31,489 bases of DNA from a virus. The position numbers and the translations under genes were made by a program. The stretch is from the IMG/VR virus record IMGVR_UViG_3300031563_000005, positions 1 to 31,489 of that record, one strand, 5' to 3'. The notes under the pieces were generated by a model that had not been told where the DNA came from, made no database searches, and saw only the letters and a program-made list of their open reading frames with translations. Every line of letters begins with the position of its first letter. The stretch's first letter is position 1. Shown in pieces: positions 8,609-27,513 of the stretch.

Positions 8609-8633
8609 TAACGTAATTTGTTTGGATTTTGTT
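8609..8633 (-). promoter_or_regulatory. Predicted phage late promoter, copy 1 (tail tube)
   Basis: On the minus strand this reads AACAAAAT, five variable bases, then CAAATTACGTTA. It is one of five 25-bp elements of the same design, each just upstream of a minus-strand gene. The distance to the tail tube start is about 33 bases, with the RBS between. Confidence 0.62.
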
Positions 8634-9749: not shown

Positions 9750-10349
9750 CTATAACTCGAAAGGAATTACTTCATCAAAGGGGTTAGTGTATAAATCAAG
9801 TATTGCTTTTGTAGATGTAGCTAGAAATTCACGGGTGAATATTTCTCTTACTGCGGCCTGTGAATCTAGTGTTTTTGAAAATACTCCGAAACGTCCTTTG
9901 CGGTGATCTTTATAAGCTTTTACTGCAATTTCTATAGTTGCTTGTTTTACTGAGCTGGGAACTGTATTATATCCATAGACATATTCTACATAAATATTTT
10001 GTGCTCCAAAGGGAAATAATGTGCCGGAAGTTAGCTCAATACGTCCAGTTTGTGGATAATAGACATAATCATCTGTTTCTGTTAGAGCAGTAGCTGTAGA
10101 TATTCCTGATTTAGAACCGGCATATTTTACTGTGCTAAGACTAATGATAGGCGCTTTAATATAAAGAAATTCCAATCCGGTTCCATTATAATATGCAGAA
10201 GTATCTGCCGAGGAAAAAGTATGTCCTGTATATTCAGTTACAACATTTTGAGCAGCAGTTGCTAATTCTAAAAGAAAATCGTCTTCCGACGTGACTGAGT
10301 CCGAGATATCTAAGTACTGTTTAACATCTGTTACTGTTATCCAAGCCAT
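9750..10349 (-). CDS. Head-tail connector protein (gp6-like adaptor)
   Basis: This 199-aa protein begins 'MAWITVTDVKQYLDISDSVTSEDDFLLELATAAQNVVTEYTGH', the signature of the phage head-tail connector/adaptor family (HK97 gp6, phiE125 gp8 type): an N-terminal helical bundle that docks under the portal. The middle is beta-rich ('YYPQTGRIELTSGTLFPFGAQNIYVEYVYGY'), and a helical segment with 'VKQATIEIAVKAYKDHRKG' follows, both typical of the family. The RBS (AAAGGA) lies inside the last codons of the upstream endonuclease, and the two genes overlap by 13 bases. In this region it is separated from the capsid gene by a terminator and the endonuclease. Confidence 0.85.
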   Translation of the reverse strand: MAWITVTDVKQYLDISDSVTSEDDFLLELATAAQNVVTEYTGHTFSSADTSAYYNGTGLEFLYIKAPIISLSTVKYAGSKSGISTATALTETDDYVYYPQTGRIELTSGTLFPFGAQNIYVEYVYGYNTVPSSVKQATIEIAVKAYKDHRKGRFGVFSKTLDSQAAVREIFTREFLATSTKAILDLYTNPFDEVIPFEL

Positions 10350-11032
10350 TTAGTGTATCCTTTGTGGGATTTTCTTTTTCCTTGGTGCAATAATACCATA
10401 TTTGAGTGTACTAAATTATTTTCCCTACAAAATCCACGAATGCTATATACTCTTATAAAATTTCCATCTGGATCTGCAAAATCAAAACTTTGTAAAGGAT
10501 TATGAACGTATTTTTCTTTAAAGTACCATTTTGTCCAACCAAAATGATTTGTATATTTTTCTTTATTAACTTGTATCATTGCGGGCCTACTTAATTTATT
10601 ATCTCTACAAAACTTGGACAGATTAAATACTTTTATATTTATGCCATCTGGAGAAGTAAAATAATAAGTTTTAGTATTCCCAGGAATATTCCCTTTTAGT
10701 TTCTTAGAAATTTTCTTTTTTGTTTCTTCGGAAAATTTTCCAGCAGTTGTTCCCCCAAGCTGTATATTGTATCCATTTGGTACGATGCTATTATAAAATC
10801 TAATGTACATCTTTTCTTTTTCGTCTAAATCTTCTCTAGACATTCCATAATCTATAACTTCTGTTTTAAAATTTTCTACCCCATGTTTTTTAATTGCATT
10901 GTGTATTGGGTATTTTCTTTTCTTAGAATAGATTAAATGTTCTTTAAATCTTTTCTCCGCTGTTTTTGTTGTCTGCCCAATATATACTTTTCCATTAACA
11001 ATATTTTCTATTTTGTAAATTATTCCGTACAT
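10337..11032 (-). CDS. GIY-YIG homing endonuclease (copy 2) with two C-terminal NUMOD modules
   Basis: This 231-aa protein has the nuclease domain first: 'YGIIYKIEN', 'YIGQT', the 'EKRFKEHL' Arg region and 'YNIQLGG'. A NUMOD3-like linker follows ('FSEETKKKISKKLKGN'). Two tandem copies of the same DNA-binding module end the protein, one with 'VFNLSKFCRDNKL' and 'GWTKW', the other with 'VYSIRGFCRENNL' and 'GYTKW'. It is inserted between the major capsid terminator and the connector gene and overlaps the latter by 13 bases. It has its own predicted host-type promoter, with the start codon almost at the predicted transcription start. Copy 1 at 789 has only one of the C-terminal modules, so the two proteins differ in target recognition. 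Confidence 0.93.
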   Translation of the reverse strand: MYGIIYKIENIVNGKVYIGQTTKTAEKRFKEHLIYSKKRKYPIHNAIKKHGVENFKTEVIDYGMSREDLDEKEKMYIRFYNSIVPNGYNIQLGGTTAGKFSEETKKKISKKLKGNIPGNTKTYYFTSPDGINIKVFNLSKFCRDNKLSRPAMIQVNKEKYTNHFGWTKWYFKEKYVHNPLQSFDFADPDGNFIRVYSIRGFCRENNLVHSNMVLLHQGKRKSHKGYTKWLG

Positions 11033-13673: not shown

Positions 13674-13850
13674 TTAAGCCTTTTTCTTTGGGAACACATT
13701 TGTATTTGTTCCACCAATTACACCAGCTACACCAGATAGAAAACAAATAACCGCAGCTTTATAATCAGGTAAAACTTGTACACAAGCAGTAATAACACCA
13801 AGTACTCCAACCCAAGTAGAAGTTTGTTTAAACCAAGGTTTATTATCCAT
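13674..13850 (-). CDS. 58-aa membrane protein in the head module
   Basis: The frame runs from an ATG at 13850, preceded by AGGAG at 13859-13863, to TAA at 13674. The product begins MDNKPWFKQTS, has two hydrophobic segments ('TWVGVLGVITACVQVL' and 'AAVICFLSGVAGVIGG') separated by 'PDYK', and ends in a basic tail (PKKKA). This is a two-helix hairpin of the size and shape of small class II-like holins. A predicted late promoter lies just upstream, and the gene heads the protease-capsid unit. No endolysin gene is visible nearby, so a holin role is only a possibility. It could instead be a membrane-associated head assembly factor. The RBS and composition make the gene itself convincing. Confidence 0.75.
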   Translation of the reverse strand: MDNKPWFKQTSTWVGVLGVITACVQVLPDYKAAVICFLSGVAGVIGGTNTNVFPKKKA

Positions 13851-13882: not shown

Positions 13883-13907
13883 TAACGTAATTTGTGACGA
13901 TTTTGTT
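13883..13907 (-). promoter_or_regulatory. Predicted phage late promoter, copy 2 (membrane protein-protease-capsid)
   Basis: The minus strand reads AACAAAAT, CGTCA, CAAATTACGTTA, the closest match to the consensus of the five copies. It ends 33 bases upstream of the start of the 58-aa membrane protein and would drive the protease and major capsid genes, which end at the terminator at 11072-11105. Confidence 0.65.
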
Positions 13908-13915
13908 TTTTATTG

Positions 13916-15274
13916 CTAACTATATGTTGCTAGAAAATCATCTATATCTTTCATGTCAACATCATCTAAAGAATTCGTTGCATTTGGGTTAGGTCGCTCT
14001 GCTCTTGGTGCTTGCGGATCTGCTACTGGACGACCTGTAGACTGAGATGAGCCTCCTTGTTTTGGTTGTGGAATATCAAACTCAGGGCCATCTAACATGG
14101 GAAGATTAAAACGAGAAACCTTGTTGAGTTCTTTTCTAGCCTCATTTGCACTAATAATTCCAGCGTCTTTAATGGAAACCAAAAAGCGTCCAAAATCGGG
14201 TAAATCTTCTACAAGTCCTGGAATTGTATTTAACTGAAATCGTACAAAAAGAGTTTCGTCATTGTAGAAATTTTGAATAAGTTTTGTTAGACGATCTTCA
14301 ATTCGAGAAAGAATGGGGCGGACGGCTAGACGATAGAACATACGAATAACGTTTGAGGAAGTAGAGAAGTTTACATTTTCGCTATTCGCAAAGAATAACA
14401 TAGGAATGCGGAAAGTGGCTGCTACGCGGCGGGCTAGAAGTTGATCTATGTCACCCATTTTTACATCACTAATGCCATCTTGAATTTTCTCGTACTTGAG
14501 GCCATTTGAGAGAATAGCGATATTTCCACTCTTGCCTGCGAATGCACTGTATAGTCGCATCCATTCTGCGCGGATTTTATCTTTTATTGCCGGAGATAAA
14601 TGCATAGCCGTAGAAAGAGTACCATCAGGACGAGCGGAGTTTCTAAAATAATCGTAGAGAAAGTTGTTGGTGAGAAGTAAGCTGTTAGATTCCTTTTGAA
14701 TAGCTTCTAATGGAGACTGGCCCCAATAAGGCCCTTCTAGCGCGCGGTTCTTAATATGAGCAATTTGGAGGGGTTTATAAACTACTTTATTTCCTGACTT
14801 TCCATACTCATAATAATCAATAAATTTACGAGGATGCGGATGAATAATCATTTCTTGAGAATCTAGAAAGTATAACTCAGCGTGACCGTGGTCTACTTCT
14901 AGCGACGTAAAAGCATTTCCGAACAAACAATAATCTTTTATAATATCAGACATCCACTCGTTATAGGTGTGGAATGGATTTGGATTGCTAAAGAGATTCT
15001 TACGGAATGCGGCTTTACGAATATTATATGATTGAGTTAGTTCACCGTTCGCATCTTGTTTAAGAATCTCAATGGGAATCTGAGCAATAGCATCTTGTAA
15101 AAGAGCTACAGCTGTTCGCACATATACAACTGTCTTAAATGTGCCATATACTGTAGTTGGACTAAATTGTTCTGAGAAGTGGGCAGAATAAACCGCCGGA
15201 AAAGATTCTGAGTCTTTTTCTGATTGGGGAACTTCTGGTTCGATTGTTTTCTTTTGCCAAAATTTTAGATTCAT
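13916..15274 (-). CDS. Portal protein, HK97 family
   Basis: This 452-aa protein has the features of HK97-type portals: an early strand-helix region 'TVYGTFKTVVYVRTAVALLQDAIAQIPIEILKQD', 'NPFHTYNEWMSDIIKDYCLFGNAFTSLEVDHG', 'PLEAIQKESNSLLLTNNFLYDYFRNSARPDGTLS', the crown/stem part 'ATFRIPMLFFANSENVNFSTSSNVIRMFYRLAVRPIL', and 'ISANEARKELNKVSRFN'. It forms the dodecameric DNA channel at the capsid vertex and the docking site for terminase. No RBS precedes the ATG. Instead the late-promoter element ends only 8 bases upstream, so this mRNA may be leaderless or have a very short leader. Confidence 0.93.
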   Translation of the reverse strand: MNLKFWQKKTIEPEVPQSEKDSESFPAVYSAHFSEQFSPTTVYGTFKTVVYVRTAVALLQDAIAQIPIEILKQDANGELTQSYNIRKAAFRKNLFSNPNPFHTYNEWMSDIIKDYCLFGNAFTSLEVDHGHAELYFLDSQEMIIHPHPRKFIDYYEYGKSGNKVVYKPLQIAHIKNRALEGPYWGQSPLEAIQKESNSLLLTNNFLYDYFRNSARPDGTLSTAMHLSPAIKDKIRAEWMRLYSAFAGKSGNIAILSNGLKYEKIQDGISDVKMGDIDQLLARRVAATFRIPMLFFANSENVNFSTSSNVIRMFYRLAVRPILSRIEDRLTKLIQNFYNDETLFVRFQLNTIPGLVEDLPDFGRFLVSIKDAGIISANEARKELNKVSRFNLPMLDGPEFDIPQPKQGGSSQSTGRPVADPQAPRAERPNPNATNSLDDVDMKDIDDFLATYS

Positions 15275-15282
15275 GTTTAAAT

Positions 15283-15307
15283 TAACGTAATTTGTGACTA
15301 TTTTGTT
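15283..15307 (-). promoter_or_regulatory. Predicted phage late promoter, copy 3 (portal)
   Basis: The minus strand reads AACAAAAT, AGTCA, CAAATTACGTTA. The element ends only 8 bases before the portal ATG, closer than any other copy. If it is a promoter, transcription would start at or next to the start codon. Confidence 0.6.
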
Positions 15308-15346: not shown

Positions 15347-15994
15347 TCATGTGATCTCCACGTTAGAGAACCAAATCGTTTTGTGATTAAACGGGTTATT
15401 ATAACGCCAGTGATAGCACCCGAATGCTAGCCGCGGCCCGAGCTGGTCGTGATAGCCAATCGGTCCATCATGATGAACGATCTCGTAGCCATCACGATGA
15501 ATCGCCAGACTGCCTATACCATCGGCACGCCAGTCCCAGGTCACCTCGACTTTCCACTGGGTCCAATGACCAAACAGGGTCGAGGCAGGGCATCGATAGA
15601 GCGTCTCTGGATGAGTCGCCTCACGATCCGGTGTGGCAGCGTGTGCATCCCATCGGGTAGTGATCTGTAGTTCACCTGCAATAAGCTGAAATGCAAGTGG
15701 TGCGGAGCGATTCTGGAAGTCCTCTGGATCGGCGTCTTGCGGGAACCAAAGGATTGCCTCACCGTCCTCATCTAATGGGTAGTCCCGTTCCATGAAGGTG
15801 TCAATATGGTAGACCAGAGGCGCTTGGAAAGGCGCGTGGTGTTGGTAGTCCTGTATGAACTCCACGCGCTTGGCCTGGTTGGCAGGGCCGCCGACGAACC
15901 AGTGGTCAACACGAATGCAATCGCGGCCATGTTCGGTGGCGAGTTGCGCGCCTCCGGGGGATAGGGTGCGGAGATGGAAGTTAGATAGATTCAT
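15347..15994 (-). CDS. Concanavalin-like protein resembling heparin lyase I family polysaccharide lyases
   Basis: This 215-aa protein has a jelly-roll pattern. Its C-terminal half matches the layout I know for the heparin lyase I-like polysaccharide lyase family: 'FGHWTQWKVEVTWDWRADG', then a short strand 'SLAIHRDGYEIVHHDGP', then 'LGPRLAFGCYHWRYNNP' and a final strand 'IWFSNVEIT'. The N-terminal half has 'VYHIDTFMERDYPLD'. I cannot confirm catalytic residues, so it may only bind a polysaccharide. It is the last gene of a GC-rich, tightly overlapping cassette; its ATG overlaps the upstream stop (ATATGA). Codon and base use differ sharply from the AT-rich portal and terminase genes on either side, suggesting recent transfer. 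Likely role: virion-attached depolymerase or adhesin. Confidence 0.65.
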   Translation of the reverse strand: MNLSNFHLRTLSPGGAQLATEHGRDCIRVDHWFVGGPANQAKRVEFIQDYQHHAPFQAPLVYHIDTFMERDYPLDEDGEAILWFPQDADPEDFQNRSAPLAFQLIAGELQITTRWDAHAATPDREATHPETLYRCPASTLFGHWTQWKVEVTWDWRADGIGSLAIHRDGYEIVHHDGPIGYHDQLGPRLAFGCYHWRYNNPFNHKTIWFSNVEIT

Positions 15995-16965
15995 ATTGGG
16001 CTATCCTTTTCAGTAGATATCTGCGTTGTTTGCAAAAGCGTAGTATCTATCCCGGGCCAGATCTGCTTATTCCCGAGAAGTGCCTGCTCTTTCATCCAAA
16101 TCATCGCTTGATCAATATAATTGTTCGCACCACTCGGAAACACAAAAAGACGAGCAAAGAGGTAATCCTGTGCCAGATCAAGAACGGCACCAGTGTATGT
16201 ATCATATTGATACCAGCCACCAGGGACTTCGTAGTATCCAGGGAAGGTTGCTGATTCTGAAAGGTGCGGATACCAGATACCCGTAGACCCTGCATCGAAT
16301 CCAACAGGTGGATCGCCGTTTTCGTCATAGCACGTTGGCAATACATCATATGCCGAATGCCCAAAGGAAATAACCTTGCCAAGGGTAAGATCATGCCAGT
16401 TATTATATAGGGATTGTAGTTTTGCGAGTCGTGTAGAGTCCGTCTCTAGAGCGATAGACTGTAGCAGCAAGTTGGTATCTACCGATCCCATCAACACCCC
16501 ATCCACCCAATGCTCCAGAACAGATCCACGCTTTACCGCTGCAATAACGTAGGTTTGACCCTCCGTTCGACGAAGTAGATCAGGAACAATCGGTGTCGCT
16601 ATCTGTGTTTCAGCACTGGCCGTTTGGTCAAAAAATGAAACCACGTAGGGCTGAAGTCTAATATGGCTTAAATAAAAGTTGCCAGATCCATTGTCGTAAG
16701 ACCCTGCTCCTCCCGATACTGAAGTAAACGCCGTCATCATCATCCAATCAAGATCACCGATAGTTGCGACGTTCTCGGCCAATGTGCCGGTCGAATTGTA
16801 CGCTGCAACAGTCACACCTGGAGCCCCACCAGCTGCTAATGTGCAGTCACCCGCCCCGTCCGATAGCGTATTACCTAAAGCACTATCCGTAATTTCAGAA
16901 ATCGGCACCGTTTCCGTCATGCGGAAATCAAGCGACAACGTAGGTGCGTCACTAATGACACTCAT
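15991..16965 (-). CDS. LamG/ConA-like beta-rich protein
   Basis: This 324-aa protein is strand-rich with the spacing of laminin-G-like or concanavalin-like domains ('TYVIAAVKRGSVLEHWVDG', 'MGSVDTNLLLQ', then 'LGKVISFGHSAYDVLP'). It is rich in Tyr, Trp, Gly and Asp, with a C-terminal helical segment 'YIDQAMIWMKEQALLGNKQI'. No signal peptide or membrane segment is present. Its start overlaps the upstream stop by one base (TAATG) and its stop overlaps the next start, so the cassette is translated as a unit. A carbohydrate-binding virion protein is a reasonable inference; I do not recognise a named family. Confidence 0.55.
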   Translation of the reverse strand: MSVISDAPTLSLDFRMTETVPISEITDSALGNTLSDGAGDCTLAAGGAPGVTVAAYNSTGTLAENVATIGDLDWMMMTAFTSVSGGAGSYDNGSGNFYLSHIRLQPYVVSFFDQTASAETQIATPIVPDLLRRTEGQTYVIAAVKRGSVLEHWVDGVLMGSVDTNLLLQSIALETDSTRLAKLQSLYNNWHDLTLGKVISFGHSAYDVLPTCYDENGDPPVGFDAGSTGIWYPHLSESATFPGYYEVPGGWYQYDTYTGAVLDLAQDYLFARLFVFPSGANNYIDQAMIWMKEQALLGNKQIWPGIDTTLLQTTQISTEKDSPI

Positions 16966-17720
16966 TATTCTCTGCCTATAAACCCAGGATAAAGATAACC
17001 AGGATTAGCTATCATCCATCGGGTAGCAGCTTCCATATCATTGAGTGAAGCAGTACATCCAAGAATCGCAAACATCTTAGTGCGACGAGCACCCGTTGAG
17101 CCGGCTGCGCCGGTTAAAATGGCCCCTGCGCCAAGAACGGCATCCGTAGTAGCAACAGTTCCAACTGGAGTATCGTTTGCAACAATTTGTGTGCTTGATC
17201 CATCTGCCTTGCCGATCGCCCACACAAACGTTTGCGCCGTAATATCAACCCCTAGCCCATTGATGGATTGCACCGTTGACCTATCAGAAGCGGGTGCAAC
17301 AGAGACAAGATAGTCATTGTCACCATCAATCCCAGCGAAGGGATAGGCTACTGCATTTTTCGCACGAAGGTTCATATATGGATAGGTAATCACACCAAAG
17401 GTCATGCCATCCATAATTCCAGAATGTATCATTCCAATATTGACGTAGGCTGATAAATCAAGACCAGCACTTAACGTAATAGTTATGTCTGTTGTTGCTC
17501 CAAGCCTAACTCCTCCAGAATCAGACACACTACCCGCAGGCGTCCCAGCTGATATCATAGAGATACCACCAACACGATCTGTGATGGTGTAAGTATCCGC
17601 ATCATAATCATCGGAGTGCCATAGCGCCTTGATGCACGGAAAGTATTTTTCCAGGTTTGCCGCCGTTGGAGTGCATATCGCAAGAAGTGCTGGGTCGTCG
17701 TAGGGCTGTAGAGCAATCAT
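16965..17720 (-). CDS. LamG-like beta-rich protein ending in a short helix motif
   Basis: This 251-aa protein is rich in Gly, Ala, Thr and Asp with alternating strands ('TDITITLSAGLDLSAYVNIGMIHSG', 'NDYLVSVAPASDRSTVQSING'). It ends with 'LNDMEAATRWMIANPGYLYPGF', a short closing helix like those that often end LamG-type domains in phage structural proteins. It overlaps the upstream gene by four bases (ATGA). It is similar in style, though not obviously homologous, to the 324-aa protein that follows, and both may decorate the virion. Function not established. Confidence 0.55.
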   Translation of the reverse strand: MIALQPYDDPALLAICTPTAANLEKYFPCIKALWHSDDYDADTYTITDRVGGISMISAGTPAGSVSDSGGVRLGATTDITITLSAGLDLSAYVNIGMIHSGIMDGMTFGVITYPYMNLRAKNAVAYPFAGIDGDNDYLVSVAPASDRSTVQSINGLGVDITAQTFVWAIGKADGSSTQIVANDTPVGTVATTDAVLGAGAILTGAAGSTGARRTKMFAILGCTASLNDMEAATRWMIANPGYLYPGFIGRE

Positions 17721-18130
17721 GCTGTCACCTCGATAAAGAATTCGCCAAGAGCATTAACGAGCGCAACTACACCAACGGTCATTACTGGTGAGGTAGGTTT
17801 TATCTCTACATCCCCAGGGCTGGGGATTTGGATTCGCGGCCCGGCTAATGTTTTATCCAGCCATAGATCACGAGTGGTTGCGTCTGGCGGGTTGGCGCAA
17901 AGCAATAACGCCTGAGCGGGGTCCCCACCCGATGTCGCAGGAACCATCACCACGCGAAATTTTCGCGCGGCCGCCGGCAGTGTGATCGTGACCTCTGTGG
18001 TAGACATCGAATAAATAGGTGTGGACAAAACTGGCCCGACCACATTACTTGCCACCGGCTTGCCGGTGGGGTCGGTGGCGTGGGGAATTATCTTCGCTCC
18101 CTCATGTTTTAAAACTGTATAAACCGACAT
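17717..18130 (-). CDS. 137-aa beta-rich protein, first gene of the GC-rich cassette
   Basis: The start follows GGGAG at good spacing. The protein is rich in Val, Pro, Ala and Thr, with strand segments such as 'TEVTITLPAAARKFRVVMVPA', 'DVEIKPTSPVMTVGVVALVN' and a terminal 'FFIEVTA', suggesting a compact beta-sandwich. It could be a head decoration or fibre-attachment protein. No late-promoter element of the common type lies directly upstream, so it is probably transcribed with the PEP-CTERM gene 54 bases upstream. I do not recognise the family. Confidence 0.55.
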   Translation of the reverse strand: MSVYTVLKHEGAKIIPHATDPTGKPVASNVVGPVLSTPIYSMSTTEVTITLPAAARKFRVVMVPATSGGDPAQALLLCANPPDATTRDLWLDKTLAGPRIQIPSPGDVEIKPTSPVMTVGVVALVNALGEFFIEVTA

Positions 18131-18184: not shown

Positions 18185-18601
18185 TCAAACACGTTTGCGT
18201 AAAGCTACTAAACCTACAATAGTGCTTCCGAATAGAAGCATGGAAGTTGGTTCTGGAACTGCTGCGCCTAGAGGGGCTGCTAAACCTGTTACTGTAGCTG
18301 AGAAAACCTGTGGGGGAACAATATTCACAACTTCTTGCCAATCTTGACGACCTGGCACATTTGCTAGAATATCTGGGTAATCTGCGGCTGCATCAGGAAA
18401 TGACATGAACCACGCACCTGTATGAGTTAGCAAGTCGGTATTCCATGGCTGAAAGCCAAATCCGCCTTCACTAATTCCACCTAAAGGAAGAGTCCAAATT
18501 TCAGGTTGCCATGGTGCAATGTCCGCAATATCCGCAGTTGAAACAGTGGGGACGAAAAATAGAGAGGTTAGAAAAATGAGACTGAAAAATAACTTGTTCA
18601 T
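18185..18601 (-). CDS. Phage-encoded PEP-CTERM secreted protein
   Basis: This is a 138-aa protein starting at the ATG at 18601, which follows AAAGGAG; an in-frame ATG nine codons upstream lacks this RBS. The N-terminus is a clear signal peptide: MNKLFF, a hydrophobic core (SLIFLTSLFFV) and a likely cleavage after 'VSTA'. The C-terminus is a full PEP-CTERM tail: 'VPEPTSMLLFG', a hydrophobic helix, then 'RKRV'. In exosortase-bearing Gram-negative bacteria this tail is cut and the protein exported, usually beside exopolysaccharide genes. The middle part is Trp- and Gly-rich ('GGISEGGFGFQPW') and not recognised. It lies in the late region between terminase and the polysaccharide-related cassette, behind its own late-promoter copy. 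Possible roles: altering the host surface, superinfection exclusion, or spread from biofilm. Confidence 0.88.
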   Translation of the reverse strand: MNKLFFSLIFLTSLFFVPTVSTADIADIAPWQPEIWTLPLGGISEGGFGFQPWNTDLLTHTGAWFMSFPDAAADYPDILANVPGRQDWQEVVNIVPPQVFSATVTGLAAPLGAAVPEPTSMLLFGSTIVGLVALRKRV

Positions 18602-18644: not shown

Positions 18645-18669
18645 TAACGTAATTTTGTTCAATCTTGTT
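18645..18669 (-). promoter_or_regulatory. Predicted phage late promoter, copy 4 (PEP-CTERM and cassette)
   Basis: The minus strand reads AACAAGAT, TGAAC, AAAATTACGTTA, differing from the consensus at a few positions. It lies 44 bases upstream of the PEP-CTERM start and directly behind the terminase stop codon. Confidence 0.58.
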
Positions 18670-18670
18670 T

Positions 18671-20749
18671 TTATAAAAATGAGAATTCTGAAATATTCTC
18701 TTGTTTTTCTTTTTCAAAATTAGATCCACCTAATACAGAAATTACATAAGAGAAAACACAATAACGAAGTGCGTCTAAACAGTCATCATTTACTTTATCA
18801 ATTCGTATGTCTCCACTTTTTGTTTCTTTGAATGCTAAGTCCATGAATTCCTTGATTAGATCTGGACAATTATCCTCAACTACAAACATCTTTTTATTGG
18901 CTAGAAGTTCCTTGATATAATTTCGTCCAGAGTCTACATGTTTGACTGCTTGATTTGCCCACCACTCAGAATTAGCAGCTTGAAGATCAGCGATAGCTTG
19001 TGGAGCAGCGTAATCGTAGAAAATATGCTCAATTTGGTTAAAATTAATACCTAATTCATCAAGTATCTCAAAAAAGCGGTCGTTGTGGTAGGTAGCCGGT
19101 TTCTTTTGTACTTTGTATGAATATAATACCCACCACTCATCATATACAGGAATGTAAGCAGCTAAAACAAAGGCCCACGGGTGAGTAAATCCTGGGTCGA
19201 TTCCTACTGCATATTCCACATGTAAATCTTTCTTTCGTTCCTCAAAATCTTCCATATTTACTAAATGTGTCTCTACAGAAAACTCTTCATAAACGGTTCC
19301 CTCTGGTGCCGCCCATTCTGCCAAGTATTCTCTAGCAAAGGCATCTTCTGACATTCCACCAGGTTGACCAATAGTGCGTTTAGCTTCATCCATATCTCCT
19401 GATTGAAGAACAATTGGATTAACATCGGAAGGAAATTTCCAACTACGCCAACCCGCTTTTTGCCCCTCTTTTGTAAGTCCTCGATAGTAATATTCTTCTA
19501 GGTAAGAACCATAGACAGGAGTAGAAATAAACACTACACGACCTTTACCACTCCCTAAATCAGAAGTTGCAGTAGAAGTTGCAGGACGAATAATTTCCTC
19601 AAAAATCTTCCTACCGCCTGGAATATTTGCAGCTTCCTCAAAAATAGTTAGGCTAGGCTCAAATCCTAAAATACTCTTTGCATTTTCAGCGGAAACTACA
19701 ATGAGCATAGAACCATTGGAGAGTTTAATTTTTTTCTCTCGCATATTTTTTTCGCTAGGTTCAAGCCCCAACTGATCCCGCAAAAGTGTTACGATGTGAG
19801 TAAAGACAATTTCTGCATTGCGATAGTTTGGAGCGATTACACAAACAGTAGCATCTGGTTGTAACATTTCACAAGTGCCTAAAATTGCACAAGATACTGT
19901 TTTTCCAAATCGTCGCCCCGCTAACAAAACATTGAAACGGGCATAGTTAGAAGGCTCATAATAAATATCAAAAAAGTCTTTCTGACCAGCGTGCGGAGTA
20001 AAATTTAAAGAAGAGAAAACAGCATAATAATTAATTGGAAGTCTGGCTGCTTTCTTTAATGAATTCTTCTCGCTAGCAATGTTTGTAAGAGCAACTTTAT
20101 TCAATCCCTCTACTGAAAGCTTTCTCTCTGTATCGGCTAGAAAAAAGTGCATTAACCAACCAGGAACATTTTCTTCTTCTGAGTCGTAACAAATGGCTAA
20201 ATCTTCAAACGTCTCCACTTTAAAAGCAACACGAGATAACAAAATATCTTTTTCAATATTAATTGGAGGAGTAGACGTAATTGGGGAAACAAATGTGTCA
20301 GGTAGGCCCATTGAAGCAATTTGACTATCAAACATCTTTATGTCAGTTAGGCGAGTTCGAGCAAGGGATATGATTTCTTTATGAGTAATATCATTAATTG
20401 TCCTAATTGCAGAAATCATGTGAGCATTTTTATCCACTGCAGTAGAATTTCTTAATGGTTGGGCTTCATTCCTCCAAATAGTAGCAGAGACAAAACCTTC
20501 TTCTATGAGCGCATTTTCTAACTGATCATCTGTACTTTTAGGATTGGCTAGAAGGTATCTCTCTACAAAAAGTATTGCGTAAGAAATAGATAATTTCCAA
20601 CGAATTTGATCAAGTTTAAGAGAATTGATAAATTTCTTTGCCTCGACCAAACTAATGTCTAAATCTTCATGTCTAGCCACAATCCATTTGGGGAATAGTC
20701 CTTTTATGGATTCTTTAAGTATTTCTTTTTTTTGTTTTCTTGTGAGCAT
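18671..20749 (-). CDS. Terminase large subunit with long N-terminal extension
   Basis: This 692-aa DNA-packaging motor has an ATPase domain with 'TPHAGQKDFFD' (about 251-261), Walker A 'AGRRFGKT' (about 277-284), and Walker B with catalytic Glu 'LTIFEEA' (about 367-373), followed by 'VFISTPVYGS'. The RNase H-like nuclease domain has Asp518 in 'VGIDPGF', Asp579 in 'IFYDYAAP' and the C-terminal Asp cluster 'NDDCLDALRYCV' (about 655-665). It cuts concatemeric DNA and pumps it through the portal. The first ~245 residues precede the ATPase and are helical ('LKESIKGLFPKWIVARHEDLD', 'LENALIEEGFVSATIWRNEAQPLRN'), making it longer than most relatives. It starts directly after the upstream stop. Confidence 0.95.
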   Translation of the reverse strand: MLTRKQKKEILKESIKGLFPKWIVARHEDLDISLVEAKKFINSLKLDQIRWKLSISYAILFVERYLLANPKSTDDQLENALIEEGFVSATIWRNEAQPLRNSTAVDKNAHMISAIRTINDITHKEIISLARTRLTDIKMFDSQIASMGLPDTFVSPITSTPPINIEKDILLSRVAFKVETFEDLAICYDSEEENVPGWLMHFFLADTERKLSVEGLNKVALTNIASEKNSLKKAARLPINYYAVFSSLNFTPHAGQKDFFDIYYEPSNYARFNVLLAGRRFGKTVSCAILGTCEMLQPDATVCVIAPNYRNAEIVFTHIVTLLRDQLGLEPSEKNMREKKIKLSNGSMLIVVSAENAKSILGFEPSLTIFEEAANIPGGRKIFEEIIRPATSTATSDLGSGKGRVVFISTPVYGSYLEEYYYRGLTKEGQKAGWRSWKFPSDVNPIVLQSGDMDEAKRTIGQPGGMSEDAFAREYLAEWAAPEGTVYEEFSVETHLVNMEDFEERKKDLHVEYAVGIDPGFTHPWAFVLAAYIPVYDEWWVLYSYKVQKKPATYHNDRFFEILDELGINFNQIEHIFYDYAAPQAIADLQAANSEWWANQAVKHVDSGRNYIKELLANKKMFVVEDNCPDLIKEFMDLAFKETKSGDIRIDKVNDDCLDALRYCVFSYVISVLGGSNFEKEKQENISEFSFL

Positions 20750-21361
20750 TTAGTGGGAATTATTTTGGGGTGAGTTGACAACACGTTTTAGAATTTTAGT
20801 TAGATTATCTTGTTTTTCGTCTGAGTTACTTTCCATGTACTTACGATACTCAGCTAGAACCTTGTCCATATTCATTCGCTCCACCTGAATCATGCCAAGA
20901 ATTTTTAGTAGAGAGGCGAGATTGGGAGTTTCCTTTTCCTTCTCATCTTTATACAATTTCTCAATTTCTCGAATAAAATTGGCTCTATCTAATAATGAAT
21001 TCTTGTATAAAAAATGCTCATGAATGGCATTAGCTTTAGAATCGTACATCAAATATGAGTATTTTTGTAAGTCTTTATCCCCGAAGAATTTATCACAAGT
21101 TTGAAGGGATTGCGCCCATTGATAAATTATATCTAATTCATCCTCTGTGAATTGTAGATAATATTGCTCAGGTACAGAATGAACAAGGGCTTCAGAAATT
21201 TCTACTGTTTTCTTTACATCAAGACCCATTGCTATAATATTTTCTTTTATTGGATCTAGATGTGGTTCGAGATTTTCCATGTATTCTACGACCTCCTTAA
21301 CAATTTCAAGATCTTTTTCAGGAGTAACAAGTCTTCGTATAAAATCATCATTATTGACCAT
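20750..21361 (-). CDS. Putative terminase small subunit or packaging-associated protein
   Basis: This 203-aa acidic protein is predicted helical throughout ('EIVKEVVEYMENLEPHLDPIKENIIAMGLDV', 'DELDIIYQWAQSLQTCDKFF'), with a basic C-terminal tail. Its stop is immediately followed by the large terminase ATG, so the two are coupled. The place directly before the large subunit is where small terminases normally lie, but I cannot see a convincing helix-turn-helix. The large subunit also has an unusually long N-terminal region that might hold part of that function. The late-promoter copy at 21451-21475 lies about 90 bases upstream. Treat the name as positional. Confidence 0.5.
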   Translation of the reverse strand: MVNNDDFIRRLVTPEKDLEIVKEVVEYMENLEPHLDPIKENIIAMGLDVKKTVEISEALVHSVPEQYYLQFTEDELDIIYQWAQSLQTCDKFFGDKDLQKYSYLMYDSKANAIHEHFLYKNSLLDRANFIREIEKLYKDEKEKETPNLASLLKILGMIQVERMNMDKVLAEYRKYMESNSDEKQDNLTKILKRVVNSPQNNSH

Positions 21362-21450: not shown

Positions 21451-21475
21451 TAACGTAATTTGGACTAATTTGGAT
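21451..21475 (-). promoter_or_regulatory. Predicted phage late promoter, copy 5 (terminase genes)
   Basis: The minus strand reads ATCCAAAT, TAGTC, CAAATTACGTTA: the right half is fully conserved and the left half is more divergent. It lies 90 bases upstream of the putative small terminase gene, leaving a leader longer than those of the other copies. Confidence 0.55.
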
Positions 21476-21770: not shown

Positions 21771-21790
21771 GTGTAGTAAAAACACTACAC
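21771..21790. repeat. Dispersed hairpin GTGTAGT-loop-ACTACAC, copy 1
   Basis: This is a perfect 7-bp stem around the 6-base loop AAAAAC. The reverse complement of exactly this 20-base sequence occurs twice more, at 24262-24281 and 24305-24324, at the other end of the sigma-factor unit. Exact conservation of stem and loop in opposite orientation argues against chance. Confidence 0.75.
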
Positions 21791-22110
21791 TTTATTCCAA
21801 ATATCCCTTTTTCTAGCCAAACACCCCTAATAGTAACAATTATCACTAATTACTTTATTATATTATTATATTATTATATTATTTTATTATATTTATAGTA
21901 ATTAGTTATTATTAGTTATTATAGTATTTATTATATTATTATATTATTAAGTAATTAGTGTTAATAGTAACAATAGTAACAATTGTAGTAATAGTAACAA
22001 TTAGAGTAATTAGCCTAATTAGCCCTATTAGAGTAATTGTAATAACTAGCACCAGTTTTACTCGTTGTACTTTAGTAACGAATTTTCTTCCATTTTCATT
22101 TTTTTGAATC

Positions 22111-22183: not shown

Positions 22184-22927
22184 ATGGCAGACAATTCACT
22201 CTCAACCCAATTTCAACAAAAAATCATTACAATCCTCGCTCTTCCCTCAATTCTCTCGTACATAAAATCCACCTTTCACAGCTATCTTTCTACAGGTTGT
22301 GCAGCAGGAAGATTTGACTATTACGAAGATATTGATTTTATTCAGGATATCCATCTCCACCTCTTTATCGTACTTGAAAAAAGAATAGCAGTAGGCTGGA
22401 ATGAAACCCAATTAGATCAATATTTTACACCTGGCCTAATTAGAATAGTTGTGCGTAATTATGTTATCGATTTACTTCGCACAAAGAGCACAAAAGTAGC
22501 CATTAAAGAATCAGAGAGCATTGATAATGATTATCTATTAGAACTTGCTCGCCATACTGACAACACTCACTTTGAAACTCTCATGGAAGAATATCTAATT
22601 TCCTCCACTTTCGATAATGCAGAGGAATTTGAGTTTCTTGAGGAAGTATTCTCTAGCCTGCCCGATTTACAAAAAGAAATCCTATCATGTATATTACTTC
22701 CTAGGTCAGAATTTATCGATTTTTTCCAATTCTACCTCAGAGAGCTAGGAATCAAGACAGAAAGTGAAATTATCGCTAAGTTCCTTGGTCTCTCACGAAT
22801 CGATTATTTTGTAGAGTTACACCAAATGAAAGAAACTATCGCAGAAAAATTAGGAATAGAACTCAGATCCATGAACGAACAAGATATCTCAGAAGTACTC
22901 AACGCAGGCAAAGGAGATCTAAAATGA
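22184..22927 (+). CDS. Phage RNA polymerase sigma factor, ECF-like (sigma-70 family)
   Basis: This 247-aa protein has a region 2-like part at about residues 48-101: 'DIDFIQDIHLHLFIVLEKRI', then 'FTPGLIRIVVRNYVIDLLRTK', matching the '..a.n..iD.lR' core that binds polymerase and melts the -10. A region 4-like part (about 158-222) has 'SLPDLQKEILSCIL', then 'SEIIAKFLGLSRIDYFVELHQMKETIAEKLG', the helix-turn-helix that reads the -35. The linker is longer than in most ECF factors, and an insertion lies inside region 4 before the helix-turn-helix. It is driven by a consensus host promoter and faces away from the late genes. Its likely job is to redirect host polymerase to the five late-promoter elements. 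Confidence 0.75.
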   Translation: MADNSLSTQFQQKIITILALPSILSYIKSTFHSYLSTGCAAGRFDYYEDIDFIQDIHLHLFIVLEKRIAVGWNETQLDQYFTPGLIRIVVRNYVIDLLRTKSTKVAIKESESIDNDYLLELARHTDNTHFETLMEEYLISSTFDNAEEFEFLEEVFSSLPDLQKEILSCILLPRSEFIDFFQFYLRELGIKTESEIIAKFLGLSRIDYFVELHQMKETIAEKLGIELRSMNEQDISEVLNAGKGDLK

Positions 22928-24255: not shown

Positions 24256-24261
24256 GTACTA

Positions 24262-24324
24262 GTGTAGTGTTTTTACTACACTTTTCACTAAATCGTCACA
24301 ATTAGTGTAGTGTTTTTACTACAC
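24262..24324. repeat. Dispersed hairpin GTGTAGT-loop-ACTACAC, copies 2 and 3
   Basis: The exact 20-base sequence occurs at 24262-24281 and 24305-24324 and is the reverse complement of the hairpin at 21771-21790. The last copy contains the stop codon (24319-24321) of the minus-strand gene that ends here. Copy 2 is followed by TTTTC on the plus strand. Confidence 0.75.
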
Positions 24325-24513
24325 CTCCCCCATTACATCCGTCACCCACCCCTCAAACAAAAACACCACAGAGTCAAGTATCCCCTCATTTTCTAGCATT
24401 TCTGTTACTCTTTCGTCGACCCTCTTCTCAATCCTTTTCATACGAGTCAACGATTGCCAATGGCTACCACTAAGCCACGATTCAACATAGATTGCCGTAT
24501 ACTTCTTACCCAT
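24319..24513 (-). CDS. 64-aa protein, last gene of the small-gene cluster
   Basis: I choose the ATG at 24513 (MGKKYTAIYVESW), which follows AAGGAG at good spacing. The frame also contains an ATG six codons earlier that overlaps this RBS. The protein has a strand start 'KYTAIYVESWLSGSHWQSLTRMKRIE' and an acidic helix. I recall similar short 'SGSH.Q.LT...RIE' phage proteins, but no function is known to me. The stop lies within a dispersed hairpin that may also end the transcript. Confidence 0.65.
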   Translation of the reverse strand: MGKKYTAIYVESWLSGSHWQSLTRMKRIEKRVDERVTEMLENEGILDSVVFLFEGWVTDVMGEV

Positions 24514-24543
24514 TGTCGTTACTCCTTCCATGTTGCAGTTAGT

Positions 24544-24795
24544 CTAATCGTCACAATCCTCGCCGTCGTCACAAGCAAGCCAGTCCCGCCAATCCTCGCC
24601 GCCCTCGCCATCGTCCATACAAGAACAACGCTCGCCAATTTCCACAGGATACCCGCATTCCAAACAATCGACATAATGTACCCAGTCTCCACGTTCACGA
24701 TCCCACGTTCCGCCACGATTAGGGCAACCGAATTCATGGCACGCGATACCGTTTATAGAGACTAGTTCGCAGCATTGACAAGTAATAGCTTTCAT
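24544..24795 (-). CDS. Cys-rich acidic small protein
   Basis: This 83-aa protein has a good RBS (GGGGGAGA) and overlaps the upstream gene by four bases. It carries ten Cys residues: 'CQCCELV', 'CHEFGC', 'CLECGYP', 'CSCMDD' and a C-terminal 'LACDDGEDCDD'. This suggests one or two zinc-ribbon folds, followed by a strongly acidic tail. The tail resembles that of the 23-aa frame at 25291 ('LACDGCED'), which suggests duplication. A protein with an acidic tail and zinc ribbons may mimic DNA or bind a host protein, but this is speculation. Confidence 0.7.
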   Translation of the reverse strand: MKAITCQCCELVSINGIACHEFGCPNRGGTWDRERGDWVHYVDCLECGYPVEIGERCSCMDDGEGGEDWRDWLACDDGEDCDD

Positions 24796-25040
24796 TGTCT
24801 CCCCCCTTTCTCTTTCGGAATCATCACAAAAACATATCCACCCTTCACACTTCCTCCCACCATATCAACATTCCAGCCCATCCTATCGCATAAAGCTCGC
24901 GCCGCTTTCCGATACACCGCTTCCCCGGATAGTGCATAGGGGTAGGGAATCGTCACTCTGTTACCGTCCCCGTCGCTGGCGACAATCCGACTACCCCTTG
25001 TGTTAGTGGGGCCAAGATATTTGGTCATAATTGCTTTCAT
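24792..25040 (-). CDS. 82-aa conserved-type phage protein
   Basis: The protein begins 'MKAIMTKYLGPTNTRGSRIVASDGDGNRVTIPYP', an opening I recognise from many small uncharacterised proteins in phages and environmental sequences. A helical part 'EAVYRKAARALCDRMGW' and a final strand 'GGYVFVMIPKEKGG' follow. It overlaps genes on both sides by four bases (ATGA), so three genes are translated in a chain. No function is known to me. Confidence 0.78.
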   Translation of the reverse strand: MKAIMTKYLGPTNTRGSRIVASDGDGNRVTIPYPYALSGEAVYRKAARALCDRMGWNVDMVGGSVKGGYVFVMIPKEKGGRQ

Positions 25041-25270
25041 GCTGGCGCACCCTTTCCATACTGTCGCAAGTGAGCTAATCGCTCTGCATCGGAAACAGTC
25101 TGAACGTGGGGATTAGCCTTTCCGCAATCGCGCATAAATTCAGCCCCCTTTCGCGTTCTAAACGGCCCGATAACATAACAATATGATTCCCCATGTGTTG
25201 CACGAGTAGGCTCAGCGGAAGCACTAAAAACTTTCCGATCGGCGTTTTTGTTTATTCCTACATAGATCAC
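25037..25270 (-). CDS. 77-aa protein with GTG start
   Basis: The start is a GTG at 25270, with AAAGGA about 7 bases upstream and no better ATG. The protein reads 'MIYVGINKNADRKVFSA' then 'YCYVIGPFRTRKGAEFMRDCG' and ends in a basic, Gly-rich tail. The 'GPF.T..GA.FM' core looks like a small strand-helix motif seen in short phage proteins of unknown role. Its stop overlaps the next start. Confidence 0.7.
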   Translation of the reverse strand: MIYVGINKNADRKVFSASAEPTRATHGESYCYVIGPFRTRKGAEFMRDCGKANPHVQTVSDAERLAHLRQYGKGAPA

Positions 25271-25290
25271 TGTTTTATCCTTTCATTACC

Positions 25291-25362
25291 CTAATCCTCG
25301 CAACCGTCACAAGCAAGCCAATTGTCGCAAGTTTCCCGGTGGCTCGATCCCCTCGCCACCAT
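25291..25362 (-). CDS. Possible 23-aa Cys-containing peptide
   Basis: ATG at 25362 follows a G-rich stretch that could serve as RBS. The product ends 'CDNWLACDGCED', matching the end of the 83-aa Cys-rich protein at 24544 ('DWLACDDGEDCDD'). The underlying DNA is also similar (GGCTTGCTTGTGACG in both). It is either a truncated duplicate of that gene or a tiny real gene. Confidence 0.4.
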   Translation of the reverse strand: MVARGSSHRETCDNWLACDGCED

Positions 25363-25423
25363 TCGCCCCCGCTTCCCCCCTTGCGACAATTGGCCGATTG
25401 ATCCTGCGTCATCCTACACGCGC

Positions 25424-25630
25424 CTACGCTACCTTTACTACCCTCCCCCCTGCTACCTTGACCCTAGCGTACCATCGATGGGGCTGCGGATAGTGCGGCC
25501 CTTCTACCGTGCATTCTCCGTCAGTAGGAGGTCCACCGAAGGGGCCAGGATTCCACAAGGTTACATGGTCCCCCCGTGTTACCGCTTCTTTCAATGCCTT
25601 TTTGGTCTGGAAGTTTGTGCTGGTATACAT
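25424..25630 (-). CDS. 68-aa conserved-type phage protein
   Basis: The protein begins 'MYTSTNFQTKKALKEAVTRG' and contains 'WNPGPFGGPPTDGECTVEGPHYPQPHRWYA', a pattern I recognise from a widespread family of small uncharacterised proteins in phage genomes. The start has GAAAGGAAAAGG upstream. It is probably a compact beta protein. No function is known to me. Confidence 0.78.
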   Translation of the reverse strand: MYTSTNFQTKKALKEAVTRGDHVTLWNPGPFGGPPTDGECTVEGPHYPQPHRWYARVKVAGGRVVKVA

Positions 25631-25681
25631 GGCCCTTTTCCTTTCGTTTCTAGCAGATTACAAAAAGCGCCGCCGATTGAG

Positions 25682-26026
25682 TCAGCCTACCATCCGAAGA
25701 TCAGAACGGGGGATGACCACAAAATACTCGCTAGTATTCCACCCTTTCCCTGTCTCTTCTGCCGTCCCCCAAGGTCGCAGGATCGGCACAGTAGCAGACA
25801 CTAGCGCCAGGTCACCACGAAACGCTAGGACGGTCACGTTGCGGAGAATGGCGCGGGAGCCGTAGTGTGCCCATTTTCCATCTCGCCGCTTGATTAATTT
25901 GGTGAATCCCGTTCGCGCATCCTGTAGCATTTTTTCCGAGTTATTGAAATGGCTCTCATTTGTGTACCGAGCTGCCTTAACGCCTAGCAATGGAACGGTG
26001 AAGGGTTTACGTTTATCGGTTTTCAT
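25682..26026 (-). CDS. 114-aa protein of unknown function
   Basis: It starts at an ATG preceded by AAAGGGG. The protein is basic in its first half ('KTDKRKPF', 'TKLIKRRDGKW') and strand-rich later ('LRNVTVLAFRGDLALVSATV', 'SEYFVVIPRSD'). There is no Cys, membrane segment or named motif. It is the largest gene of the small-gene cluster and lies 4 bases after the preceding gene. Confidence 0.65.
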   Translation of the reverse strand: MKTDKRKPFTVPLLGVKAARYTNESHFNNSEKMLQDARTGFTKLIKRRDGKWAHYGSRAILRNVTVLAFRGDLALVSATVPILRPWGTAEETGKGWNTSEYFVVIPRSDLRMVG

Positions 26027-26030
26027 TGCT

Positions 26031-26228
26031 CTACCCCTTTACGTTTAAGTGATCGCCTACAATGTTTACTACGCCAAACTTTTCGCTAGCGCAGCGGCGA
26101 CAATAAACCCGATTATCGCTAGGCTCTACCTTATCAATTAATACGGTATCAAGGGGGTACATTAGGCCGCAGAAAATACACTTTACCCTCAATATGCGAT
26201 TATTGGCACCGCGCCATAGAGTTTTCAT
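26031..26228 (-). CDS. Zinc-ribbon protein, 65 aa
   Basis: Two CxxC pairs, 'VKCIFCGLMYP' near residue 16 and 'YCRRCASEKFG' near residue 43, about 26 residues apart, form a classic small zinc ribbon. The N-terminus is basic ('KTLWRGANNRILR'), consistent with nucleic-acid binding. The RBS is GGGGATA-like, and the gene follows its neighbour by 8 bases. It could be a small transcription regulator. Confidence 0.72.
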   Translation of the reverse strand: MKTLWRGANNRILRVKCIFCGLMYPLDTVLIDKVEPSDNRVYCRRCASEKFGVVNIVGDHLNVKG

Positions 26229-26236
26229 TGTATCCC

Positions 26237-26482
26237 CTACCCCTTCTTATTCTTCGACACAAGGTCAATACACTCCGCAAACTTCCCACTATCGTACACA
26301 ATTGCTCTCCGTCCACGCTGACCTTGCGGTTTATCCACCGTTCCGACAGCGGGCACGGCGAACAAGCTAATGATGGCTCGTACGGTCGTAGTATCCAGCC
26401 CGTGCGTGCTTTCCAAATTTTTCACGGTTCCGGGAATTGTCACTAGTTCGGCCGGTACGTAGTCAGTAGTCGTGTTTTCCAT
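26237..26482 (-). CDS. 81-aa protein, possible winged-helix-like
   Basis: It starts at an ATG with GAAAGGG upstream. The sequence 'VPAELVTIPGTVKNLESTHGLDTTTVRAIISLFAVPAVGTV' with 'RAIVYDSGKFAECIDLVSK' has the helix-helix-strand pattern of a small DNA-binding or transcription-regulating fold, but this is only an impression. No Cys pair or membrane segment is present. Basic C-terminus. Confidence 0.6.
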   Translation of the reverse strand: MENTTTDYVPAELVTIPGTVKNLESTHGLDTTTVRAIISLFAVPAVGTVDKPQGQRGRRAIVYDSGKFAECIDLVSKNKKG

Positions 26483-26569
26483 TGTCTTACCCTTTCGTTT
26501 TTGGTTAGGTTATTTTCTAGCGTGGTTATTGAGCCAAGCGCAATCCGTTCCACGAATTAGGCTCAGTTT

Positions 26570-26839
26570 TCACAACGTAGATATGTAGGTGCGCGCATGC
26601 CTCCCGTTCGGTCTATATGGCGCCTGCGGAGAATCATACACAACCCGCACCCTTTTCATATCTCCGCGCCTTTCTACCCAAGCTATCATGTCCCGCTGCA
26701 ATTCGGGAGCGCAAGCCCACGCTGCATAACTCGCCCCGCCTTCTACCTCGCCCCACCCTGACAGAAAAGAGTCTGTACCTATAACAAGGCAGGTTAGACT
26801 CTTTTTTTGCTCTTCGGTCCTATCGTCCTGAATAATCAT
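26570..26839 (-). CDS. 89-aa protein of unknown function
   Basis: I choose the ATG at 26839 (MIIQDDRTEEQ), which overlaps the stop of the 33-aa membrane protein (TGATG) and has AGGGG upstream, rather than longer versions of the frame that run through that gene. The protein has strands 'KSLTCLVIGTDSFLSGWG' and 'KRVRVVYDSPQAPYRPNG', with a helix 'ELQRDMIAWVERRG'. It is not a recognised family. Confidence 0.62.
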   Translation of the reverse strand: MIIQDDRTEEQKKSLTCLVIGTDSFLSGWGEVEGGASYAAWACAPELQRDMIAWVERRGDMKRVRVVYDSPQAPYRPNGRHARTYISTL

Positions 26840-26940
26840 CACAACACCCCTAATGTATAAAGGTTGATTGCTAGCGACATGATCGCAAAGACATACACCC
26901 CAGCTACTAGCGCGCGGGTTATTAGGCTTTCTTCGTCCAT
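26839..26940 (-). CDS. 33-aa single-pass membrane protein
   Basis: The frame starts at an ATG at 26940, with AGGGGAT upstream, and ends in a TGA overlapping the next ATG. The product begins MDEESLITRALVAG and continues as one hydrophobic helix ('VYVFAIMSLAINLYTLGVL'), an acidic N-terminus followed by a membrane span. Small phage membrane peptides like this often act on the host envelope, but its role is unknown. Confidence 0.6.
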   Translation of the reverse strand: MDEESLITRALVAGVYVFAIMSLAINLYTLGVL

Positions 26941-26951
26941 TGCTCATCCCC

Positions 26952-27206
26952 TCATATCCCAAACTGGCGACAAAGATTATCAATATCGTCAAACTCTACC
27001 GCGATGGGCTCCCCTCTCTCCCGTGTGCTCCCCCTCTCCTGCGACCATTGCTCTTCAGATATGGTGCGCTCTTCGTTTCCTGTGCAGATAGCGGCATATT
27101 TCAGATTCACGACAGACGACCGCGGCGCCTTTACCGTATCGTTCATCGTCCAGACTACGCAGTCACCATAAGCTGCCCCTACTGGCGCTTTTACGATTGT
27201 TTTCAT
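26952..27206 (-). CDS. 84-aa protein of unknown function
   Basis: I choose the ATG at 27206 (MKTIVKAPVGAAYG), which has GGGGGAG 8 bases upstream; a GTG three codons earlier is less well placed. The protein has a strand-rich start ('GDCVVWTMNDTVKAPRSSVVNLKYAAIC') and an acidic helical end ('VEFDDIDNLCRQFG'). Its start overlaps the stop of the preceding frame (ATGA). Confidence 0.62.
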   Translation of the reverse strand: MKTIVKAPVGAAYGDCVVWTMNDTVKAPRSSVVNLKYAAICTGNEERTISEEQWSQERGSTRERGEPIAVEFDDIDNLCRQFGI

Positions 27207-27415
27207 CCCCTCCACTCCCCCGCCGGGACGTACTCAAGATTGATCCTAGCGCCGAATGGCAGATAAACGCTCACCTCGTGGCAAACATCGGCCGCTTCAC
27301 CACCGAAAGAACAGGGAACATCCACGATAAACGAAAGGGTGACACAGGAAAACTTTTTTGCCTGATCATCATGGATTGACACGATCTCTGCACCGGCACA
27401 CTCGTGAATAGCCGT
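27203..27415 (-). CDS. Probable ~60-70-aa protein with a non-ATG start
   Basis: An open frame without any ATG runs from a TAG just before 27415 to a TGA overlapping the next gene's ATG. It reads like a real protein ('KKFSCVTLSFIVDVPCSF', 'CHEVSVYLPFGARINLEYVPAGEW'), with four Cys in all. A ribosome-binding leader AAAGGGTAGAGC, the same as the one before the gene at 25682, sits at the 5' end, where an ACG stands in place of ATG. A GTG at 27382 is the alternative. Either a rare start is used or the start codon has mutated. Confidence 0.5.
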   Translation of the reverse strand, partial: TAIHECAGAEIVSIHDDQAKKFSCVTLSFIVDVPCSFGGEAADVCHEVSVYLPFGARINLEYVPAGEWRG

Positions 27416-27429
27416 GCTCTACCCTTTCG

Positions 27430-27513
27430 TTACTTCGCCAACGTGTTGAGAAGGTGCGCCATACCCCACAAAACGGGTGAATAGATAATGGCGATCAAAA
27501 ATAGGTAGCGCAT
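27430..27513 (-). CDS. 27-aa membrane peptide
   Basis: ATG at 27513 follows GAAAGGC. The product is MRYLFLIAIIYSPVLW followed by GMAHLLNTLAK: a basic start and a hydrophobic span. It is of the same kind as the 33-aa peptide at 26839 and lies at the upstream end of the small-gene cluster. Confidence 0.5.
   Translation of the reverse strand: MRYLFLIAIIYSPVLWGMAHLLNTLAK

Follow-up and report, generated by a model that had tools for sequence, protein, structure and literature searches.

A putative exosortase substrate encoded in the packaging module of a divergent T5-like phage, and PEP-CTERM genes in other uncultured phages

We report a PEP-CTERM gene in the late module of what its structural genes indicate to be a divergent T5-like phage, known from an IMG/VR record that is classed as a linear virus fragment and whose full 31,489 bases are the window of this study. 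We consider it probable that the gene is owned by the phage and encodes an exosortase substrate which the host processes to its surface or exopolysaccharide, and that it represents one case of a recurrent phage strategy whose likeliest benefit is a changed glycan coat. The window gene is no isolated oddity: uncultured phages encode PEP-CTERM proteins repeatedly and conserve them.

The 138-aa product has the features expected of a sorted surface protein. Its ATG is preceded within a few bases by a strong Shine-Dalgarno sequence, AAAGGAG, and its N-terminus, MNKLFFSLIFLTSLFFVPTVSTA, is a predicted Sec signal peptide (residues 1-23), recognised from hydropathy and sequence alone as MNK, a hydrophobic stretch and STA followed by D. 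The mature part (residues ~24-113) starts with DIADIAPW and, over about 90 residues, contains no Cys, 5 Trp and 10 Pro. A tail at residues 114-138 consists of VPEP, a predicted transmembrane helix (TSMLLFGSTIVGLVAL, mean hydropathy 1.93) and a basic RKRV terminus, so that the C-terminal end reads VPEPTSMLLFGSTIVGLVALRKRV; the sequence as a whole runs from MNKLFFSLIFLTSLFFVPTVSTA through DIADIAPW to GAAVPEPTSMLLFGSTIVGLVALRKRV. Hydropathy identifies two hydrophobic segments and no more, at residues ~2-20 and 119-134. The original prediction had described this arrangement of signal peptide, mature part of about 90 residues and VPEP, helix and RKR tail, and both sequence and hydropathy bear it out. 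Searches against PEP-CTERM models agree, since two curated models score above their cut-offs: Pfam PF07589 matches the tail end to end (25.9 bits against a cut-off of 20.7; E 9.9e-6; residues 114-137), and NCBIfam TIGR02595 matches residues 115-137 (20.7 bits against 16). A simple rule for such tails, namely PEP, a hydrophobic stretch and a basic end, is passed by one real ORF in the window and by none of the 2,024 ORFs of 100 simulated windows, and PF07589 at its default threshold had no matches in 14 named control genomes. The assignment of the product as a PEP-CTERM protein is thus supported by two curated models. AlphaFold, run on the window protein alone, gave a pLDDT of 39, which is too low for use.

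PEP-CTERM proteins are exported by Sec and handled by exosortase, and both the retention of exopolysaccharide at the surface and the formation of flocs and biofilms require them (PMC12188702, PMC9850573). The window protein shares with the bacterial system (PF07589/TIGR02595 with EpsH/Xrt, PF09721; for example PepA of floc formers) the signal peptide, the variable mature part and the PEP, helix and basic C-terminus, whereas its gene lies within a phage packaging module with no exosortase or exopolysaccharide locus nearby. Identity with PepA was considered and rejected: the floc_PepA model (NF033554) scores 35.2 bits against a cut-off of 80, the similarity falls mostly in the tail, and unrelated PEP-CTERM proteins receive a comparably weak score. 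Among phage proteins, the closest parallel we considered is Llp of phage T5, together with other superinfection-exclusion lipoproteins; Llp establishes that T5-like phages do produce surface proteins that block reinfection (PMC9586334). Like Llp, the window protein would be a small secreted phage protein destined for the cell surface in a T5-like phage, with a possible block of adsorption. In contrast, Llp is a lipoprotein whose target is the receptor FhuA, while the window protein uses a different sorting tag and, having no cysteine, lacks a lipobox, so we rejected an Llp-type lipoprotein as its identity. In the openly accessible literature searched, we found no paper that describes phage-encoded PEP-CTERM proteins or a phage that makes use of host exosortase, in agreement with the statement made when the gene was first noticed.

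The gene sits in a minus-strand late module with the following order, after which come connectors and tail genes:

20750-21361, minus strand: unknown gene, with its own AAATTACGTTA copy in front
18671-20749, minus strand: terminase large subunit (TerL, T5-like), immediately upstream of the PEP-CTERM gene; phrog_2 E 7.6e-40; PF03237; 27% identity to Demerecviridae TerL
18185-18601, minus strand: PEP-CTERM protein gene, 138 aa; ATG at 18601, TGA at 18185-18187
17717-18130, minus strand: 137-aa gene with no family match, first of a four-gene cassette; GC3 0.52
16965-17720, minus strand: 251-aa cassette gene, no Pfam or PHROG match; GC 0.47
15991-16965, minus strand: 324-aa cassette gene, no match in Pfam, PHROGs, PDB sequences, phages or IMG/VR
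15347-15994, minus strand: polysaccharide lyase PF14099, last cassette gene; 49.3 bits against a cut-off of 29.9; E 7.4e-13; GC3 0.58; no evident signal peptide
13916-15274, minus strand: portal protein; PF04860 E 1.2e-47
13674-13850, minus strand: 58-aa ORF between portal and protease, with two hydrophobic stretches, holin-like by its sequence
12450, minus strand: prohead protease, late module
11130, minus strand: major capsid protein (MCP), late module

Two genes for GIY-YIG type homing endonucleases, at 789-1544 and 10337-11032 (minus strand), lie in the tail and head modules.

In tblastn searches against Demerecviridae, TerL (E 1e-33), portal (7e-18) and MCP (1e-14) all find relatives, and the order of TerL, a variable gene, portal, protease and MCP is the same in that family and in the window. 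The proteins are 22-31% identical and no more, and T5-like genomes measure ~105-125 kb with terminal repeats, whereas the window phage is known as a 31.5-kb linear fragment. On the strength of these three proteins and the gene order, we assign the phage to a divergent T5-like lineage. In the T5-like isolates Kamaji and JSF10, a single variable gene separates TerL from the portal gene; among T5-like isolates this slot is taken by a nicking endonuclease or a hypothetical gene, and in the window it holds the PEP-CTERM gene. The gene had been placed between terminase and portal: TerL and portal do flank it, but the four genes at 15347-18130 separate it from the portal. This cassette, in which one gene is the PF14099 lyase and the other three have no match of any kind, has a GC of 0.47-0.55 within a phage of ~0.38 GC, and base composition shifts sharply at 15.3-18.1 kb. 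The PEP-CTERM gene has a GC3 of 0.29, against 0.26 for TerL, 0.29 for the portal and 0.37-0.58 for the adjoining cassette, and the cassette looks like a more recent acquisition than the PEP-CTERM gene. A second high-GC block (0.47-0.53) occurs at 24500-27500, with strongly negative GC skew and short overlapping ORFs only, none of them identified.

An 11-nt element, AAATTACGTTA, occurs in five exact copies in the window, where 0.04 would be expected. All five are intergenic, on the minus strand and facing late genes:

21451-21461, minus strand: before the unknown gene 20750-21361
18645-18655, minus strand: upstream of the PEP-CTERM gene, a putative late promoter element
15283-15293, minus strand: before the portal gene
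13883-13893, minus strand: before the 58-aa holin-like ORF
8609-8619, minus strand: before the minor tail gene 7538-8575

Likeness around the copies extends over ~33-37 nt, and we regard the element as a likely regulatory element of the phage. The original prediction had spoken of a phage-type late promoter, and the five intergenic copies before late genes lend this support; the promoter nature itself we infer. Calling the element a promoter is uncertain because its distance to the start codon varies, from only about 8 nt at the portal gene up to about 43 nt. A scan for sigma-70-type promoters gave no signal above shuffles. A plus-strand gene at 22184-22927 weakly matches an RNA polymerase sigma factor PHROG (E 1.5e-4), and its product might be the factor that reads AAATTACGTTA. 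Elsewhere between genes, a terminator-like 21-nt hairpin rich in AGTGTAGT lies at 21771-21791, 24261-24281 and 24304-24324, in opposite orientation across divergent gene blocks, and a 45-nt AT-rich inverted repeat lies at 21830-21974, in the non-coding stretch that separates the divergent late genes from those on the right-hand side. The phage-like codon composition of the PEP-CTERM gene and the AAATTACGTTA copy facing a late gene support that the gene is phage-owned and ameliorated to the phage, and not a chimeric join. Together with its place in the packaging module, the phage-like GC3 and the phage-specific element show that the earlier claim of phage ownership was largely right.

The mature domain of the window protein stands alone. 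It has no homologues in IMG/VR, in 50,697 isolate phage records or in 72,556 plasmids, and the phage has no close relative among GenBank phages or IMG/VR; sister phages sought through TerL, AAATTACGTTA and a cassette gene gave none that is close. As to whether related phages keep the gene in the same place, 24 related records were tested, and none has a PEP-CTERM match that exceeds the cut-off. A search for PEP-CTERM tails in isolate phages gave no match, with a tail-only query that is weak owing to BLAST low-complexity masking. In bacterial genomes, tail-only matches to the window protein came from six loci, five of them in Omnitrophota and the sixth in a deltaproteobacterium, and three of the six genomes carry a clear exosortase; these matches are weak host evidence because EPTSMLLF, an exact peptide of the tail, served as the search seed. 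It seems reasonable that a PEP-CTERM gene narrows the host to an exosortase-bearing group.

Tail probes run against IMG/VR revealed about 42 further contigs with PEP-CTERM genes. Two of the probe sets (A4 and A6) include hand-written, consensus-like rows and were used for finding candidates alone, which were then confirmed with PF07589: all 39 further records tested exceed its cut-off, and 16 of them hold at least two PEP-CTERM genes. Neighbouring genes attest the phage nature of records in this set, with a PF03237 terminase in nine and a T7-type portal (PF12236) in three others, and some of the remainder may be host or plasmid DNA. Phages of unrelated types carry these genes, and endolysin, terminase or portal genes are frequent neighbours, as in these contigs:

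L103: TerL, PEP-CTERM gene, T7-type portal, in an unrelated podovirus-like contig
L096: PEP-CTERM gene directly before a P22-type portal (E 1.6e-169)
L110: PEP-CTERM gene before TerL and portal
L101: PEP-CTERM gene before TerL
L102: major head protein, then PEP-CTERM gene
L116: PEP-CTERM gene near protease and portal
L075, L087, L115: GH25 endolysin, two PEP-CTERM genes, virion protein

Exosortase was found in none of the 40 PEP-CTERM phage records (the window and the 39 others), so these phages would depend on the enzyme of the host. In four contigs, genes for proline-rich phage proteins adjoin the PEP-CTERM genes (L074:4598-5152, L095:4683-5132, L101:2457-2807 and L102:4941-5426); several of these proteins carry repeats of the PDQGLPG/PDNSLPGG type, and the one in L101 has no family match.

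Sequence conservation could be followed in one set of these proteins, family A, which comprises 144 IMG/VR loci (L075, L087, L096, L115 and 140 others). Eighty of the 144 were kept, and 53 non-redundant members were aligned over the whole mature domain. Pfam PEP-CTERM matches 50 of the 53, and none matches any PHROG. Close pairs have dN/dS values of 0.10-0.30, which indicates that the family evolves under purifying selection. In the tail, E216 and P217 are invariant in all 53 members and P215 is present in 50. One search seed contained VPEPAS, so that the family counts partly depend on a seed with PEP, and we restrict the claim of conservation to the 55 loci that do not fit the seed pattern; PEP is kept in 50 of these, and four of the other five are xEP variants. 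Among the genes that adjoin family members are endolysins upstream and TerL or a P22-type portal downstream, and also polymerase or helicase genes; late timing is not universal in the family because some members adjoin these early genes. The mature domain is a predicted jelly-roll of ~190 aa with two conserved Cys, modelled by AlphaFold from the 53-row alignment as an all-beta sandwich followed by a C-terminal helix (pLDDT 90.8). Its nearest solved folds in VIA-align are Bd1399 (Z 9.4), the surface glycan-binding protein SGBP-B (8.6) and CBM61 (8.0), a set that includes glycan-binding proteins; several domains of phage tailspikes rank lower. The model may suggest a glycan-binding-like sandwich, and Z values of 8-9 may reflect a common fold alone.

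Family A resembles the window protein in being phage-encoded, with a signal peptide, a PEP-CTERM tail and a frequent position near packaging or lysis genes, whereas its ~190-aa mature domain has no detectable relation to the 90-residue domain of the window protein. We rejected the window protein as a member, since the two align in the tail alone and tblastn gave the window protein no match. Because the window protein lies outside the family, the arguments from fold and conservation reach it at the level of the class only. In 247 genomes of one bacterial phylum, matches to family A are nearly all confined to the tail, with one weak match of near-full length. A second, unrelated PEP-CTERM gene often stands directly after the family A gene (in L078, L111, L115, L118 and others), which suggests that the two encode paired surface proteins.

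These observations suggest the following course of events. The phage-specific element would drive transcription of the PEP-CTERM gene alongside the genes for packaging and structure, presumably late in infection. The PEP-CTERM product would pass the inner membrane by Sec and be retained by the C-terminal helix, and the tail, together with the known PEP-CTERM pathway, suggests that host exosortase would process it near VPEP. The mature part of ~90 residues would then be displayed on, or released into, the outer surface or exopolysaccharide of the infected cell. In many unrelated phages this sorting tail is joined to mature domains that are themselves unrelated, and lysis or packaging genes are often close by. 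The likeliest benefit would be that a glycan coat altered late in infection keeps further virions, those of the phage's own progeny among them, from attaching to the cell or its debris. This glycan layer is probably also the target of the PF14099 lyase encoded in the gene block. The precise role of the window protein we infer from this setting. Masking is the likeliest, and loosening of the matrix is a close rival that fits the present data equally. Here an exosortase substrate would loosen or restructure the matrix for the escape of progeny and would not block adsorption. The lyase in the gene block, the lysis-gene neighbours of PEP-CTERM genes in other phages and the role of PEP-CTERM proteins in holding exopolysaccharide and flocs together, which a decoy could disturb (PMC9850573, PMC12188702), are all in keeping with it, but no enzymatic domain was found in the window protein, and we hold this reading only tentatively.

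Other explanations dispense with exosortase or with a function for the phage. A signal peptide and a single C-terminal helix also fit a simple anchored protein, in which case the tail would be a membrane anchor alone and the product a periplasm-facing lysis protein of the inner membrane, for example a spanin- or holin-modulating one; the 58-aa holin-like ORF shares AAATTACGTTA, and PEP-CTERM genes often follow endolysins in other phages. Yet anchoring does not need VPEP, while PEP persists in 50 of the 55 unselected family A members and EP in 53 of 53; moreover, the PEP-CTERM model covers the window tail end to end, and the modelled family A domain resembles an ordinary folded beta-sandwich, not a spanin. 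We therefore find the anchor unlikely. It is somewhat less likely still that the gene is recently captured host cargo of little or no use to the phage. Host PEP-CTERM proteins are very diverse, the window protein has no relatives and its gene adjoins a high-GC acquired cassette, but its GC3 is already that of the phage core, it has the phage's own AAATTACGTTA, and PEP-CTERM genes in other phages are kept under purifying selection. As for an assembly chimera or bacterial contamination within the contig, which the sharp change in composition at 15.3-18.1 kb and the lack of closest records for comparison might suggest, the element stands on both sides of that change, with one copy preceding the PEP-CTERM gene and another the portal gene, the composition of the gene is phage-like, and a PEP-CTERM tail recurs between TerL and portal in the unrelated L103, all of which makes such an artefact highly improbable.

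Exosortase sorting has previously been described as a bacterial surface system tied to exopolysaccharide. Phages repeatedly encode substrates for it whose tail is maintained by selection, and carry no exosortase themselves, which suggests that an interface between phage and host has been overlooked. With our confidence evenly divided, we propose more broadly that phages of exosortase-bearing bacteria routinely rely on the host enzyme to place glycan-binding or masking proteins of their own on infected cells. Phage PEP-CTERM proteins would then be a large class, as yet without a name, whose several mature domains are unrelated and whose members are produced close to lysis or packaging and block readsorption or remodel the exopolysaccharide coat. 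The tail offers a concrete host marker for many uncultured phages, and the proteins are candidate factors for superinfection or matrix control in floc- and biofilm-forming bacteria. Family A, absent from PHROGs, is one that annotation pipelines may wrongly discard as host contamination. The recurrence of phage PEP-CTERM genes suggests that phages have a means, so far largely overlooked, of changing the surface of infected cells.
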